A stretch of 64,000 bases of DNA from Thiomargarita sp. (lineage in GTDB: Bacteria > Pseudomonadota > Gammaproteobacteria > Beggiatoales > Beggiatoaceae): NCBI GenBank assembly GCA_022729575.1, contig DZAL01000001.1:86755-150754 (forward strand). The letters run 5' to 3'. The notes below the pieces were generated by a model. The model worked only from the letters and a program-made list of their open reading frames with translations, did no database searches and was not told the DNA's origin. The translations under genes and the position numbers were made by a program. Numbering within the stretch: position 1 is the stretch's first letter; each line of letters starts with the position of its first letter. Shown here piece after piece: positions 26,674 to 40,804 of the stretch.

Positions 26674-26678
26674 GGTCA

Positions 26679-26716
26679 GGTTAAACCTGACAGGTCTCGA
26701 AGACCTGTCAGGTTTG
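26679..26716. repeat. AAACCTGACAGGT palindrome
   Basis: Inverted repeat TTAAACCTGACAGGTC/GACCTGTCAGGTTT directly behind the 136-aa gene. The same position and sequence follow the paralogue at 30790. Confidence 0.75.
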
Positions 26717-26790
26717 ATAAGCGATTTAGTGAGCAACAATCACCCTACTTGACCATATTAATTTTCTCGACTCAATGAGAATCCATAACA

Positions 26791-27168
26791 ATGAGTTACT
26801 TAACCAAATCAGTAGAAAACTTAACCGTGGCCCAATGGGCTTATGACAATGGTCATTACAACGCCTCGGCAAACCGGGCCTATTATGCCGTCTTTCAAGC
26901 GGCGTTAGCGGCGTTAGCGAACGTTTCCGTCATCACCTCCGAGGAACGTGTCAGTCATGAACGAGCACAGGCATTGTTTGCCCGTGAATTGATAACCCGG
27001 CGCAAACTTTATTCCAGCGACTTTAAATCTCATCTACTGACTTTGCAAACAGTCAGAGAATTGGCTGATTACAAACCAATGTTGGTGTCCTCTAACGTGG
27101 CCTCCAGACAGTTGAAAAAAGCTAAAGAGTTTGTTCATGCCGTCTCTGCGAAGCTAACGACATTTTGA
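26791..27168 (+). CDS. HEPN-domain protein (UPF0332-like), copy 1
   Basis: A 125-aa four-helix HEPN protein. The family core NASANRAYYAVFQAALAAL is plain, followed by RVSHERAQALFARELI and a C-terminal helix with TVRELADYKPM. HEPN proteins of this type are usually the ribonuclease half of HEPN/MNT toxin-antitoxin pairs. The other two copies here (35767, 40433) carry RRKIYPSH, which could serve as an RX4-6H motif; in this copy the histidine is replaced (RRKLYSSD). It is followed by an 81-aa partner. Confidence 0.78.
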   Translation: MSYLTKSVENLTVAQWAYDNGHYNASANRAYYAVFQAALAALANVSVITSEERVSHERAQALFARELITRRKLYSSDFKSHLLTLQTVRELADYKPMLVSSNVASRQLKKAKEFVHAVSAKLTTF

Positions 27169-27253
27169 GGTTGCTTTCTGACTGAAACCCAAGCACCCAA
27201 GCAGCAAAGAATTTGAAATAACCAATTACCACGACCAGCACGATGAGGAAATT

Positions 27254-27499
27254 ATGTTAAATTTTAAACAACTTGAACTGGGTCAGCAATTATTTGAACA
27301 ACTGCAACCGAAATTTGCTGACCTGAAGTTAATTGATATTACGGAAAGTGTCTTCAATCCGACTAATATTTGGGTTAATATTGTGATGCCAGCCGACCGA
27401 GAGAGTTGGATGGACGTGATAGAAGCCGCCAGTGATATGTCTATGGACTTGCTGTTGGACTATGGCTATCATATTACCATCAATCCTGTGACGAATTAG
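27254..27499 (+). CDS. HEPN partner, degenerate MNT-like protein, copy 1
   Basis: An 81-aa protein: MLNFKQLELGQQLFEQLQ, then ITESVFNPTNIWVNIVMPAD, then DLLLDYGYHITINP. Paralogues at 35498 and 40164 always sit directly after a HEPN gene. The secondary-structure order (helix, strand, strand, helix, strand) and position suggest a minimal nucleotidyltransferase-like fold, but the catalytic GSxxxGxxxxxSDxD motif is absent. Role as an antitoxin is inferred from position only. Confidence 0.6.
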   Translation: MLNFKQLELGQQLFEQLQPKFADLKLIDITESVFNPTNIWVNIVMPADRESWMDVIEAASDMSMDLLLDYGYHITINPVTN

Positions 27500-31335: not shown

Positions 31336-31427
31336 GGTTAACATCAATGACACATTTCCGGTTTTCCAAGAGATGACTATGACTTCTACAATATTACTGA
31401 TTCAATGGTATAATAGTTGTGACTTAT

Positions 31428-31691
31428 ATGTGGAAAATTGAATATAAAACACCAGTGATTAGAGTATTGGCAAGAATGTCTCGCAAAGTCGCTAAGTTAA
31501 TCGAAGGAAAAATTGAACAGTTAGCCAACAACCCTTATGCACCAAACAACAATGTCACGGCACTGAAGGGAATGAACAACTATTATCGATTGAGAGTTGG
31601 TGACTGGCGGGTGGTCTATCGAATGGATGGTCAGATTTTGACCATTGTGGTTCTAAAGATTGCCCCGCGTGGCGGCGCTTATCAACCATAA
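31428..31691 (+). CDS. RelE/ParE-type toxin
   Basis: An 87-aa RelE-superfamily protein: MWKIEYKTPVIRVLARMSRK, then NNVTALKGMNNYYRLRVGDWRVVY, ending in VLKIAPRGGAYQ. This matches ribosome-dependent mRNA interferases of the RelE family. I prefer ATG 31428 over GTG 31419. An XRE-type antitoxin gene follows 26 bp later. Confidence 0.85.
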   Translation: MWKIEYKTPVIRVLARMSRKVAKLIEGKIEQLANNPYAPNNNVTALKGMNNYYRLRVGDWRVVYRMDGQILTIVVLKIAPRGGAYQP

Positions 31692-31717
31692 CTCAATCTT
31701 GTGTCCCACTCAACTGG

Positions 31718-32116
31718 ATGGCAACAATGATGATGAACATACAGATTATTCAAAAAGAGGGTAAGCCCGAATGGGCCGTGATTCCGTATGACCTGTATTT
31801 ACAACTCTTGGCAGAAACGGATTTGGCTGAGGACTTGGAATTGTTAGAAGAAGCCGTTGCTGCCGAAGCCACGGAAAGTATTCCCGCCGAAGTGGTTCAC
31901 CGTATCATTGAAGGTGACAACTTAATCCAGGTTTGGCGTAAATATCGTGGTCTCACGCAACAGGAATTGGCTAGACAAGCGGGCATTAGTCATGGCTATT
32001 TAGCAAAACTTGAAACCGGCAGACGAACCACCAGTAGTCAAACCACTTTGACGGCTATCGCTAAGGTATTAAATTTGACGGCAGCAGATTTGACTAGAGA
32101 AGAACTTGACAGTTAA
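31718..32116 (+). CDS. XRE-family antitoxin
   Basis: A 132-aa protein. The N-terminal part (PEWAVIPYDLYLQLLAE) resembles antitoxin dimerisation segments, and a central acidic helix follows. The C-terminal half is a HTH_3 domain: LIQVWRKYRGLTQQELARQ, AGISHGYLAKLETGRR. It pairs with the RelE toxin upstream and likely represses the operon. Confidence 0.85.
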   Translation: MATMMMNIQIIQKEGKPEWAVIPYDLYLQLLAETDLAEDLELLEEAVAAEATESIPAEVVHRIIEGDNLIQVWRKYRGLTQQELARQAGISHGYLAKLETGRRTTSSQTTLTAIAKVLNLTAADLTREELDS

Positions 32117-35041: not shown

Positions 35042-35201
35042 TCAGGTAGGGTGAGCAACGGGTTTATCGTTGCCCACCATTTTGCAGGTTGCGGGTGATA
35101 GGTTAGGACTGCTAGTCGGGTAGGGTGAGCAGGGAGTTTATCGTGGCCCACCATTTTCGGTTTCTAATGAAGGTGGGCAAATAAACACTTGCCCTACATT
35201 G

Positions 35202-35363
35202 TTGGCCAGTGCTAATGACAACGATGTGATGATATGGGATGTGGACCCGCATTCTTGGGCTGCTAAACTTTGCCAGAAAGTGAATCGCAATTTTACTCAG
35301 GAGGAATGGAAGCGATTTTTTGGGGAGAGGGAGTATGAGAAGACTTGTCCGGGGGTGGAGTGA
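35202..35363 (+). pseudogene. 3' end of a WD40-repeat gene (relic 1)
   Basis: Open without a start: LASANDNDVMIWDVDPHSW, then AAKLCQKVNRNFTQEEWKRF, FGEREYEKTCPGVE and stop. This is the last WD blade plus the tail typical of WD40 STAND proteins. The rest of 35042-35497 is 'gtcaggtagggtgagcaacgggtttatcg' repeat and an 'aacaggttcttgaaacctgt' palindrome. Four more relics follow. Confidence 0.75.
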
Positions 35364-35497
35364 GGGGGGAGATTGTCAAACAAGGACAACGAATTGAGAA
35401 ATAAACGAAAGGGAAAACTAGAAATGGCCGGGTTGAAGGCTTTAGCCGGAAGTGAGACCTAACAGGTTCTTGAAACCTGTCAGATCTGAGAATAACA

Positions 35498-35761
35498 CTA
35501 AGCTAGTTGTTTGACAGGCCCATTGGCAGAACTGACCGTAATATGATAACCGTAGTCCAACAAAATATCGGTTGACAGGTCCGCGGCTTGTTCTCGCAAG
35601 CCACTACGACGGTCATCCGTTTCGGGCATCACTAAGTTCACCCAAATATGATTGGGATACACCCCGCTTTCCACAATGTCCTCCAATTGTATTTCAGGAT
35701 AGTGCTCTTTTAAGTGCTCAAACAATCCCTGACTCAGTTCTAATTGCTTGTCATTCATCAT
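35498..35761 (-). CDS. HEPN partner, degenerate MNT-like protein, copy 2
   Basis: An 87-aa paralogue of 27254 and 40164: NDKQLELSQGLFEHLKEHYP, then DIVESGVYPNHIWVNLVMPE, DLSTDILLDYGYHITVSS. No nucleotidyltransferase catalytic motif. I start at ATG 35761 (a GTG at 35770 is possible). It follows its HEPN gene by 5 bp on the minus strand. Confidence 0.62.
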   Translation of the reverse strand: MMNDKQLELSQGLFEHLKEHYPEIQLEDIVESGVYPNHIWVNLVMPETDDRRSGLREQAADLSTDILLDYGYHITVSSANGPVKQLA

Positions 35762-35766
35762 ATTTC

Positions 35767-36135
35767 TCACTCTGGTGTAACGAGGTTGACAAATTCTTGC
35801 GCCTTCCGTAACTGTTTGGCAGCCTCTTTTTTGGAGATGGATGATAACTTGTAATCCGCATCATCTCGGACTCCCTGTAATTCCATCAAATAGGATTTTA
35901 AATGACTCGGATAAATCTTGCGCCGATGAATTAACTCCGCCGCAAACTTACCCTGCGCCGTTTCATGGCTGACACGACTTTGGTCCAACACCTTCGCCCG
36001 CGCTAACGCCACCAACGCCGCTTGAAAAGCCGCATAGTAAGCACGATTAGCCGACGCATTATACAGCCCGTGGTCAAACAGCAATTGGGCCGCTGCCAGA
36101 TTTTCTTTCGCTTTGCTGGTAAATTCTAGTATCAT
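35767..36135 (-). CDS. HEPN-domain protein (UPF0332-like), copy 2
   Basis: A 122-aa HEPN protein: MILEFTSKAKENLAAAQLLF, NASANRAYYAAFQAALVAL, SRVSHETAQGKFAAELIH, then RRKIYPSHLKSYLM (an RX5H or RX6H pattern) and GVRDDADYKLSS. The frame extends to 36246, but the paralogue alignment ends at M of MILEF, so I start at 36135. Almost identical in its middle to copy 3. Confidence 0.8.
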   Translation of the reverse strand: MILEFTSKAKENLAAAQLLFDHGLYNASANRAYYAAFQAALVALARAKVLDQSRVSHETAQGKFAAELIHRRKIYPSHLKSYLMELQGVRDDADYKLSSISKKEAAKQLRKAQEFVNLVTPE

Positions 36136-36245
36136 ATCAAAGACTCGCTGGGGGAATTTAAGCGTAAGTAGAGTAACAGAGTCAAACGAGGTAGTCAAGA
36201 GGGTCATGGTAAGTTTTAGTGTTTCATGGTCCACGGCAACCATCA

Positions 36246-36437
36246 CCGTTATTCAGTCCTGATGGCAAACTATTGGCAAGTAATAATAGCTTTGATGTTG
36301 TGATGATATGGGAGGTGGACCCTCATTCTTGGGCGGCTAAACTGTGCCCGAAGGTACACCGCAATTTTACTCAGGAGGAATGGAAGCGGTTTTTTGGGGA
36401 GAGGGAATATGAGAAGACTGGTCCGGGGGTGGAGTGA
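36246..36437 (+). pseudogene. 3' end of a WD40-repeat gene (relic 2)
   Basis: SPLFSPDGKLLASNNSFDVV, MIWEVDPHSWAAKLCPKVHR, then NFTQEEWKRFFGEREYEK and stop. It preserves a full final blade and tail without lesions, but has no start or upstream propeller. It lies back-to-back with HEPN copy 2. Confidence 0.75.
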
Positions 36438-37496: not shown

Positions 37497-37718
37497 ATGA
37501 TAATGACTTTTGAACAAACTGTCGATGCTGTCATGCAATTGACTCTGGAACAACAGGACCTGTTAGCGGACTTGCTGAAAAGATGGCGTATTGAACAAAC
37601 TCGTACACAAATTGCTAAAGGCGCCGCCGAAGACATTGTTGACTTTCAACGTGGCAAATTCCAGTCACAACCGGTGGCCAACATCATTGCGGAATTACGA
37701 CAAACCTTGGTAGATTAA
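37497..37718 (+). CDS. Antitoxin-like protein, 73 aa
   Basis: MIMTFEQTVDAVMQLTLEQQ, then DLLADLLKRWRIEQTRTQIA, ending IAELRQTLVD. It has the helical style of small type II antitoxins. Two bases separate it from a YafQ/RelE-type toxin. Shine-Dalgarno AAGGAGA 9 nt before ATG 37497. Confidence 0.75.
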   Translation: MIMTFEQTVDAVMQLTLEQQDLLADLLKRWRIEQTRTQIAKGAAEDIVDFQRGKFQSQPVANIIAELRQTLVD

Positions 37719-37719
37719 G

Positions 37720-38037
37720 ATGCGCGAATTAGTGTTAACGCCACGTTTTAAAAGAGCTTTTCGCAAATTTATGCGCCAGCACCGTCACTTGCAGAAGACT
37801 ATCGAAGAAACCCTTATCCAAATGCAAAGCGATATTTTTGCGGTGCCCCTTCACACGCATAAACTCACAGGCCCGTTATCTGGATTGCGGGCCTGTTCCT
37901 GCGGTTATGATTGTCGTATGGTGTTTAGCATTGAACTCAACCAACTGACTGGGAAGGAAGAAATTTTTTACTCAATATTGGGACGCACGAGGAGATATAC
38001 TAAAGGCTATGGCGTGACGAGTTGTCCACCATTTTAG
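37720..38037 (+). CDS. YafQ/RelE-type toxin
   Basis: A 105-aa RelE-superfamily toxin: ELVLTPRFKRAFRKFMRQH, then HTHKLTGPLSGLRACSCGYDCRMVF, EIFYSILGRTRR. The last residues (YGVTSCPPF) derive from the 'gtccaccatttt' repeat, so the natural C terminus may have been altered. Confidence 0.82.
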   Translation: MRELVLTPRFKRAFRKFMRQHRHLQKTIEETLIQMQSDIFAVPLHTHKLTGPLSGLRACSCGYDCRMVFSIELNQLTGKEEIFYSILGRTRRYTKGYGVTSCPPF

Positions 38038-38394: not shown

Positions 38395-38646
38395 CTATTT
38401 TAGCATCCGTTCATACTCCTCATGAGTGCCTATCCATACCCAAATCAAATCTTGTTGGTCCTCCACCGCCAGCGTTCTATAATTAAGACCAATTCTAGCG
38501 GACCACAACTTTCCAACTTTTTTGAAATGTAAGGACGGGTGTTGTGGATAGCGTTTTAACAACTCAAAGTTCTTCCTGGCCAATCTCTGAATCGGCACCG
38601 GCAATTGGTTAAAACAGGTCCAAAAACGTTTGCTAGTTTTGTGCAT
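38395..38646 (-). CDS. RelE/HigB-like toxin
   Basis: An 83-aa protein: FWTCFNQLPVPIQRLARKNF, then HFKKVGKLWSARIGLNYRTL, ending WIGTHEEYERML. The GxLWSxRxGxxYR pattern marks a RelE-superfamily toxin. One base separates it from the antitoxin-like gene upstream on the minus strand. Confidence 0.82.
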   Translation of the reverse strand: MHKTSKRFWTCFNQLPVPIQRLARKNFELLKRYPQHPSLHFKKVGKLWSARIGLNYRTLAVEDQQDLIWVWIGTHEEYERMLK

Positions 38647-38647
38647 A

Positions 38648-38857
38648 TCAAAGTGGCTGTAATTGTCCCTGAGTCTTTTCCAACTGTGCTTCCTCTATCA
38701 GAAAGTCTAATTTACCGGCCAGACTATCTTGGGTGATTTGCCGGTCCCAGTGTTCCCCTTCGAGGTCACTCCACCACTGTTGAAAATAAGTCAACTCTTC
38801 TGGAGACAGGGTCCGAATAACGGACTGGATTTGTTGTATTTTGGACAAATTTATCAT
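38648..38857 (-). CDS. Antitoxin-like protein, 69 aa
   Basis: MINLSKIQQIQSVIRTLSPE, then FQQWWSDLEGEHWDRQITQD, ending LEKTQGQLQPL. It has the style of a small helical antitoxin, upstream of and one base from the RelE-like toxin. Probable module; DNA binding not evident. Confidence 0.75.
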   Translation of the reverse strand: MINLSKIQQIQSVIRTLSPEELTYFQQWWSDLEGEHWDRQITQDSLAGKLDFLIEEAQLEKTQGQLQPL

Positions 38858-39337: not shown

Positions 39338-39598
39338 ATGGAACAAATTACAGTGAATGAACTACAGAATAATCTGCATTCCATTTTTGACCGCATCACT
39401 CACCAGCATGAAATCATTTCAGTGGTACGGGGTCCAGACCACTCAGTGGTACTCTTAGATGCGGATGATTATGACAGTCTCTTAGAGACCCTTTATTTGT
39501 CGCAACCTCCTGCCAATGCGGAACGTTTACGCCAAGGCATGGAACAACATCGTCGAGGACAAGTGAGGGAAATCGATGTTACGACTTATTTGGACTGA
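39338..39598 (+). CDS. Phd/YefM-type antitoxin
   Basis: An 86-aa Phd/YefM protein: ITVNELQNNLHSIFDRITHQ, then SVVRGPDHSVVLLDADDYDS, LLETLYLS. The fold binds operator DNA with its N terminus and toxin with its C terminus. Shine-Dalgarno AAGGAG 7 nt before ATG 39338. It overlaps the toxin gene by 23 bp. Confidence 0.9.
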   Translation: MEQITVNELQNNLHSIFDRITHQHEIISVVRGPDHSVVLLDADDYDSLLETLYLSQPPANAERLRQGMEQHRRGQVREIDVTTYLD

Positions 39599-39842
39599 AA
39601 TAGGATTGGAAGACCTCGAATGGTGGCAAGCACACGATAATAAAATGCTGAAACGAATCATTTTGCTGTGCTTAGAAACTTGTAAACATCCTACGCAAGG
39701 AATCGGTAAACCTGAACCACTCAAGTTTAATTATCAAGGTTACTGGTCACGTCGCATCGATGACAAACACCGCCTGGTCTATGCGTTTGATAAAGACTCT
39801 GTCACGGTGATTCAATGTCGTCATCATTATGGTGATAAGTAG
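39576..39842 (+). CDS. YoeB/Txe-type toxin
   Basis: An 88-aa protein: LIWTEIGLEDLEWWQAHDNK, then GIGKPEPLKFNYQGYWSRRI, DDKHRLVYAF, ending CRHHYG. All YoeB landmarks are present (GxPExLxxxxxGxWSRRIxxxHRLVY and the C-terminal H-Y). Ribosome-dependent mRNA interferase. Confidence 0.93.
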   Translation: MLRLIWTEIGLEDLEWWQAHDNKMLKRIILLCLETCKHPTQGIGKPEPLKFNYQGYWSRRIDDKHRLVYAFDKDSVTVIQCRHHYGDK

Positions 39843-39926
39843 TCAGATAGGATAGGCAACAAGTTTATCGTTGCCCACCACTGGGCAAAGAAGATGGGCC
39901 AAGAAACACTGGCCCACCCTACAACT

Positions 39927-40029
39927 ATTAAACTTTGCCAGAAACTGAATCGCCATTTTACTCAAGAGGAATGGCGACGGTTTTTTGGGGAGATGGAGTC
40001 TGAGAAGACTGGTCCGGGGGGTGGAGTGA
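39927..40029 (+). pseudogene. 3' end of a WD40-repeat gene (relic 5)
   Basis: KLCQKLNRHFTQEEWRRFFG, then EMESEKTGPGGGV, where an extra G shifts the frame before the old stop. It is preceded by a 'gtcagataggataggcaacaagtttatcg' repeat. The downstream 40030-40160 is near-identical to the DNA behind relic 1, so relic and HEPN pair duplicated together. Confidence 0.65.
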
Positions 40030-40163
40030 GGGGGTGGGTTGTCAGACAAGGACAACGAATTGAGAAATAAACGAATAGGAAAACTGGAACTGGCCGGACT
40101 GGAGGCTTTAGCTGGAAGTGAGACCTGACAGGTCTTTCTGACCTGTCAGGTCTGAGAATAACA

Positions 40164-40430
40164 TTAAGTTACCTGATTTTTCATCTCTGGCACGGACGAC
40201 ACAATGGTAATATGATGGCCATGGTCTAACAGAATGTCGGTGGAAATTTCCGAAGCCAGTTTACCGATTTCAATTTCCTTATCCTCATCAGCGGGCATCA
40301 CCATCCTCACCCAAATATGATTAGGATAGACACCACTTTCGACAATGTCCACTAATGCTACGTCTGGATAACGCTGTTGCAACTGGTCAAACAACTGTTG
40401 ACTTAATTCTAACTGTTTAAAATTTATCAT
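40164..40430 (-). CDS. HEPN partner, degenerate MNT-like protein, copy 3
   Basis: An 88-aa paralogue: MINFKQLELSQQLFDQLQQR, DIVESGVYPNHIWVRMVMPA, then KLASEISTDILLDHGHHITI. No catalytic GS-DxD motif. Two bases downstream of its HEPN gene. Confidence 0.62.
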   Translation of the reverse strand: MINFKQLELSQQLFDQLQQRYPDVALVDIVESGVYPNHIWVRMVMPADEDKEIEIGKLASEISTDILLDHGHHITIVSSVPEMKNQVT

Positions 40431-40432
40431 AC

Positions 40433-40804
40433 TTATTTCTCCTGAAAGAGGATTTCAATAAATTCCTGGGCTTGTTTCAACTGCATCAAAGCCACCTTTT
40501 TTGAGACCGCGACCAATTGATAATCAGCACTATCTCGAACCCGTTGTAATTCCATCAAATAGGATTTTAAATGACTCGGATAAATCTTGCGTCGGTGAAT
40601 TAACTCCGCCGCAAACTTACCCTGCGCCGTTTCATGGCTGACACGACTTTGGTCCAACACCTTCGCCCGCGCTAACGCCACCAACGCCGCTTGAAAAGCC
40701 GCATAGTAAGCACGATTGGCTGACGCATTATACAGCCCGTGGTCAAACAACAATTGGGCCGCCGCGAGATTTTCTTTCGCTTTGCTGGCAAATTCTAGTA
40801 TCAT
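40433..40804 (-). CDS. HEPN-domain protein (UPF0332-like), copy 3
   Basis: A 123-aa protein: MILEFASKAKENLAAAQLLF, NASANRAYYAAFQAALVAL, AELIHRRKIYPSHLKSYLM, then RVRDSADYQLVAVSKK. The RRKIYPSH segment gives an RX5H/RX6H pattern. I start at ATG 40804 by alignment with the paralogues; the frame runs open to 40915. Confidence 0.8.
   Translation of the reverse strand: MILEFASKAKENLAAAQLLFDHGLYNASANRAYYAAFQAALVALARAKVLDQSRVSHETAQGKFAAELIHRRKIYPSHLKSYLMELQRVRDSADYQLVAVSKKVALMQLKQAQEFIEILFQEK

Follow-up and report, generated by a model that had tools for sequence, protein, structure and literature searches.

The window, a 64,000-nucleotide stretch from the genome of a giant-sulfur-bacterium relative, contains three neighbouring gene pairs, each consisting of a HEPN gene and a gene for a small partner protein, which we interpret, with a probability of about 0.58, as a variant of the Class II HEPN/MNT modules in which a presumably toxic HEPN protein would be neutralised by the binding of its partner. 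HEPN/MNT has been described as the most abundant prokaryotic toxin-antitoxin (TA) module, and the usual MNT antitoxin is an enzyme that disarms the HEPN toxin by AMP tagging.

Module 1 is located on the forward strand, with a HEPN gene at 26791..27168 (125 aa) and a partner gene at 27254..27499 (81 aa), while modules 2 and 3 are found on the reverse strand, with HEPN genes at 35767..36135 (122 aa) and 40433..40804 (123 aa) and partner genes at 35498..35761 (87 aa) and 40164..40430 (88 aa), respectively. ORF calls and Pfam searches recovered all three pairs where the first-pass annotation had placed them, and the partner lengths agree with its estimate of about 81-88 aa. All three HEPN proteins score above the curated Pfam cut-off for PF05168 (E 3.9e-8, 1.2e-10 and 4.3e-10 for copies 1 to 3), and the partners are mutually 48-54% identical. 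A fourth intact pair is encoded on contig C68 of the same genome and a decayed fifth on C407. Pairwise dN/dS ratios, where measurable, amount to 0.10-0.20 for the HEPN and 0.16-0.34 for the partner, indicating purifying selection on both genes. Because of these low ratios and the recurrence of the pair in other phyla, the pairs are not chance ORFs.

Several features of the pairs are those expected of TA modules. Most show an ATGA or similarly close junction, with the Shine-Dalgarno sequence of the partner inside the 3' end of the HEPN gene, pair 1 being the exception with a gap of 85 bases. Every intact HEPN gene has a partner, and partners outlive HEPN genes: across the 33 loci tracked, all 17 full-length HEPNs and one nearly full-length HEPN are accompanied by a partner, and six intact or nearly intact partners stand beside a HEPN gene that has been lost or broken (G018:C307, G036:C370, G018:C225, G002:C711, G017:C357 and G021:C68). 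In a HEPN-directed search, too, each full-length family HEPN recovered came with a partner. With six cases in one direction, a two-sided sign test gives a value of about 0.03, where some of the losses may be assembly errors. Several general characteristics of TA systems are therefore present, namely a two-gene operon, purifying selection on both genes, repeated and patchy distribution and a presumed toxin that is not kept without its presumed antitoxin.

The partner profile is present in 13 of the 43 genomes of the window's order (the Beggiatoa/Thiomargarita group), and across 369 genomes sampled evenly from the class the partner was found only in the window's own genome and in one family member. 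A scan of 84,980 species genomes with a seven-sequence partner alignment yielded 19 loci, while a three-sequence query over the same genome contigs had found nothing. These loci belong to Parabeggiatoa, Thiomargarita and other Thiotrichaceae MAGs, to four Desulfobacterota (L075, L082, L083, L084) and to one Kapaibacterium (L088), and in all five of the outsider genomes a HEPN gene lies immediately upstream of the partner gene. The order HEPN then partner holds wherever both genes are present, as opposed to the MNT-first order of Class II HEPN/MNT modules. No relatives of the partner were detected in the viral contigs and plasmids searched, and none of the family HEPNs in the plasmids and phages searched, so nothing points to carriage by a sequenced phage or plasmid. 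No description of a HEPN paired with a catalytically empty partner was found in searches of open-access papers.

Alignment of the 17 paired family HEPNs, copy 1 included, revealed that R90-x-x-A93-D94-Y95 and H57 are invariant (17/17). In the window the motif reads R-E-L-A-D-Y in copy 1 (27055..27072, forward strand), R-D-D-A-D-Y in copy 2 (35851..35868, reverse strand) and R-D-S-A-D-Y in copy 3 (40520..40537, reverse strand), and the motif of copy 1 aligns to RNRSDY of PDB entry 9xbd. This entry, which also holds a nucleotidyltransferase chain, and 9xbc, with RNRSDF, are the best solved-structure matches of the HEPN. Judged from these alignments, the motif at the active or acceptor position is RxxADY and not RRKIYPSH, the stretch which the first-pass annotation had taken as functional and whose replacement by RRKLYSSD in copy 1 had led it to suggest that this pair may be inactive or reassigned. 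The replacement is indeed present, but RRKIYPSH lies about 20 residues upstream of RxxADY, with free variation across the family at its P, S and H positions, a distant Kapaibacterium HEPN likewise having S-D at the corresponding positions, so that RRKIYPSH can be discarded as active site. The inactivity or reassignment of copy 1 finds no support either, as its RELADY is intact and its dN/dS is low, in line with purifying selection. Neither the Rx4-6H RNase motif nor RX4HXY is present in the 17 aligned family HEPNs, and since this class of HEPN lacks Rx4-6H, RNase activity is not assured. In PF05168 HEPNs, an aspartate often replaces the catalytic histidine and a conserved histidine is found elsewhere (Anantharaman et al., PMC3710099), and Class II modules (PF05168/PF01909) comprise a toxin with a conserved tyrosine and without RX4H (Yao et al., PMC7641770).

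For the partner, no significant sequence match was obtained in Pfam, NCBIfam, PADLOC, PHROGs or the PDB. The lack of the catalytic motif, observed for the three window copies in the first-pass annotation, extends to the entire family: G[ST]...DxD (the GSX10DXD transferase motif) occurs in none of the 24 members scanned, the residue aligned to the second catalytic Asp is Trp in 22 of them and Arg in the other two, and in AlphaFold2 models the active-site loop between strands 1 and 2 comprises 6 residues as compared to 13 in a real MNT encoded on contig C48 of the window's genome. Due to the absence of this motif, AMP transfer by the partner itself appears implausible, and binding would be the natural alternative.

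Profile comparison, predicted secondary-structure order and genomic position nonetheless argue that the partner is quite probably a degenerate MNT by descent. The window's genome carries two ordinary pairs in which an MNT precedes a HEPN with RxxSDY (contigs C48 and C285), where the C48 MNT contains GSRARQTHQADSDAD and the C285 MNT the same with DRDAD, and such true MNT>HEPN pairs of this genome, and the relatives of these pairs, have the same RxxxDY HEPN motif as the family HEPNs. When the 24-sequence partner family was compared by hhalign to a set of 12 MNTs, made up of sequences paired with RxxADY-type HEPNs and close relatives and including sequences from plasmids and other genomes, the probability was 52-64% (P 6e-5 to 1.4e-4) over 79-80 of 88 residues with every element in register, and 40-73% if any single MNT sequence was left out. 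None of 300 column shuffles reached the score (29.6 vs a shuffle maximum of 21.6), the reversed profile scored 17.4 and non-MNT decoys scored at most 14.5. The match depends on the MNT set, dropping to 11% with a 7-sequence subset and to 6% with a mixed set, and MNTs from HepT-type and RYPD-type HEPN pairs gave 6% and 0.3%; at the level of profiles, these comparisons indicate that the partner is closest to MNTs paired with HEPNs of the same R-x-x-A-D-Y type. In an hmmsearch of the partner profile over 1,089 ORFs, MNTs ranked at the top (11 of the 20 best vs 1.7 expected), an enrichment that is partly inflated by spurious ORFs in the background; some signal was obtained with the reversed profile as well (P 2e-7 vs 3e-23). 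The AlphaFold2 models of partner 3 (H4-20 E25-31 E38-44 H49-70 E73-79, mean pLDDT 90.7) and of the C48 MNT (H4-20 E23-29 E43-49 H56-74 E78-84 plus C-terminal helices, pLDDT 87.6) agree in the order and lengths of their elements. Hence, the MNT-like strand-helix order proposed in the first-pass annotation holds up, while the match to the MNT fold is backed by element order and profile (P about 1e-4) and not by Foldseek, which returned no match below E 0.001 for the partner model (best E 0.017 in the PDB), no MNT among the best 50 listed and no confident match among viral models; a real MNT modelled in the same way matches MNTs at 1e-6. MNT homology is therefore likely, not proven.

The leading Foldseek matches, none of which is significant, are short alpha-beta-beta-alpha-beta domains (RbfA, BolA, KH-like domains and CDF C-termini), and KH-II, BolA and RbfA-like domains have the same secondary-structure order as the partner, as would be expected if it were not MNT-derived but an unrelated small protein of this topology that serves as antitoxin or RNA-binding companion of the HEPN. 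The fact that no sequence family recognises the partner would fit such an origin as well. We nevertheless consider it unlikely, since the whole-protein profile match is specific to MNTs pairing with the same type of HEPN, and the partner sits in the place of the MNT beside the HEPN. The domains in question have no sequence link to the partner and are not known as HEPN partners. A similarly low probability is given to the idea that the HEPN, as a non-catalytic domain, binds RNA or protein and that the pair serves in regulation or assembly rather than as a TA system. The missing Rx4-6H motif points in this direction, and non-catalytic HEPNs in MNT pairs have been discussed (Anantharaman et al., PMC3710099), however, according to the same work HEPNs without the motif proved toxic in a genome-wide screen, a Legionella HEPN uses a metal site in place of RX4H (PMC11586414), H57 and RxxADY are kept without exception, and the one-sided gene loss and the TA-rich setting fit a toxin-antitoxin pair. 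Much less probable still is AMPylation in trans, in which a genuine MNT of the same genome, such as that of C48 or C285, would modify the HEPN with the partner acting as adaptor. The invariance of the RxxADY acceptor tyrosine (17/17 HEPNs) would then be accounted for, and the genome does possess two MNTs paired with RxxxDY HEPNs, but the C48/C285 type of MNT was found in no other genome of the order while the partner occurs in 13, and the tyrosine may be structural.

Modules 2 and 3 are mosaics of each other. The 5' part of module 2 (35874..36254, reverse strand), which spans the upstream region and the HEPN gene up to about codon 87, is near-identical to module 3, and it is followed by a divergent block (35509..35873; counterpart in module 3 at about 40542-40175, both on the reverse strand) that covers the 3' third of the HEPN gene including the RxxADY codons and the whole partner gene, with 58-67% nucleotide identity and pS 0.7-0.9, after which the 3' flank (35270..35508, reverse strand) returns to about 80-93% identity with its module 3 counterpart. 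In numbers, 250 of 258 nucleotides are the same in HEPN codons 1-86 (synonymous difference 0.12), as opposed to 63 of 108 in codons 87-122, which include RxxADY (0.91), and 156 of 234 in the partner (0.71), and the synonymous-site contrast between the blocks is highly significant (Fisher P 3e-14). An independent mosaic is seen in the tandem HEPN/partner pairs of G001:C62 (L046 1130-2569, its reverse complement), in which the outer ends, HEPN codons 1-45 and partner codons 61-90, are nearly identical and the middle has diverged (P 4e-16). Both mosaics are most simply read as recombination with diverged relatives, the 3' part of the HEPN gene and the partner gene moving as one block. Such a joint block fits a cognate HEPN-partner interface located there; the Legionella MNT, in its complex, contacts helices 3 and 4 of the HEPN (PMC11586414). 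Gene conversion homogenising the ends would give the same pattern. A distance-matrix test found HEPN and partner to be congruent overall (0/2000), and an extra coupling of the C-terminal part of the HEPN with the partner was not significant (241/2000).

Under the variant Class II reading, the first gene would encode the presumed toxin, a HEPN of the R-x-x-A-D-Y type, and the second gene, coupled to it in translation, a shortened MNT with the alpha-beta-beta-alpha-beta core preserved, which would have lost the whole nucleotide-transfer loop (G-S...D-x-D) together with the C-terminal tail. The partner would most likely act as a non-enzymatic antitoxin that attaches to its cognate HEPN by the surface which serves a catalytic MNT and forms a steric block, so that the module would function as type II rather than type VII, with the invariant tyrosine being structural or a relic. 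The Legionella MNT binds its HEPN via a helix and a helix-strand loop (PMC11586414), both of which are kept in the partner. In the HepT/MntA system, catalytic-dead MntA still binds and neutralises poorly, from which the authors concluded that binding is not sufficient (PMC7641770), so that in a lineage which depends on binding the interface must have become tighter. A more far-reaching proposal, which we put forward tentatively and at somewhat less than even odds, is that this lineage dropped enzymatic (type VII) neutralisation in favour of a pseudo-nucleotidyltransferase antitoxin acting purely by binding, whose specificity would reside in a recombining cassette of HEPN 3' part and partner. 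If so, the cassette would allow paralogous modules within one genome to diverge as cognate units.

Among known systems, the Class II HEPN/MNT modules (PF05168 + PF01909, with COG2250-type HEPNs, e.g., the solved complex 9xbd) share with the pairs the HEPN Pfam family, R-x-x-x-D-Y with its conserved tyrosine, two small adjacent genes and a partner with an MNT-like core. They differ in that the partner described here lacks GSX10DXD and the C-terminal helices, has a shortened loop and measures 81-98 aa instead of about 105-125, and in that the HEPN gene comes first, an order opposite to that of nearly all HEPN/MNT dyads (PMC3710099). In view of the absent transferase motif and the reversed gene order, the pairs are no standard Class II module and are best filed as a variant derived from one. 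Type VII HepT/MntA (Class I, RX4HXY + GSX10DXD; Shewanella SO_3166/SO_3165) also combines a HEPN-fold protein carrying a tyrosine beside its motif with an adjacent MNT-fold partner, however, the HEPN here has no RX4H, the partner has no transferase motif, the gene order is reversed and catalysis matters for neutralisation in HepT/MntA. In Legionella pneumophila HEPN-MNT (PDB 8xeh), an MNT without the alpha-4 helix still controls its HEPN through the alpha-2 helix and the alpha2-beta3 loop, both kept in the partner; unlike the partner, this MNT is an active AMP transferase with GSX10DXD. The best-studied HEPN/MNT form is considered to require AMP transfer by the MNT (PMC7641770). A conserved family of loop-less MNTs still paired with HEPNs across phyla, under purifying selection, would thus provide a natural experiment on the need for AMPylation as well as a means of studying the action of Class II HEPNs, which have no RX4H RNase motif.

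The surroundings of the modules are rich in other TA-like pairs and repeats. ParE + HTH, a YafQ-like gene preceded by a small one, ParE-like and Phd + YoeB pairs form an island around the HEPN pairs (31419-32116, 37497-38037, 38395-38857 and 39338-39842). Module 1 is surrounded by duplicated genes (26095-26673/30380-30790, 24695-25147/30883-31335 and 27801-28184/29150-29719), the 27801 copy being truncated in comparison with the 29150 copy. Short ORFs that recur with a WD40-like tail (SWAAKLC-KV-RNFTQEEWKRFFGE), probably remnants of a repeated gene family, adjoin modules 2 and 3 at 35199-35363, 36219-36437 and 39894-40070. The modules are also bordered by short palindromic elements of REP-like type (CCTGACAGGTCT..AGACCTGTCAGG), one at 26678-26720 and others immediately downstream of partners 2 and 3. 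Outside the window, an ordinary MNT + RxxADY HEPN pair is located directly downstream of a Tn3-family transposase on a Nitrosomonas europaea plasmid (L202, NZ_CP157070.1).
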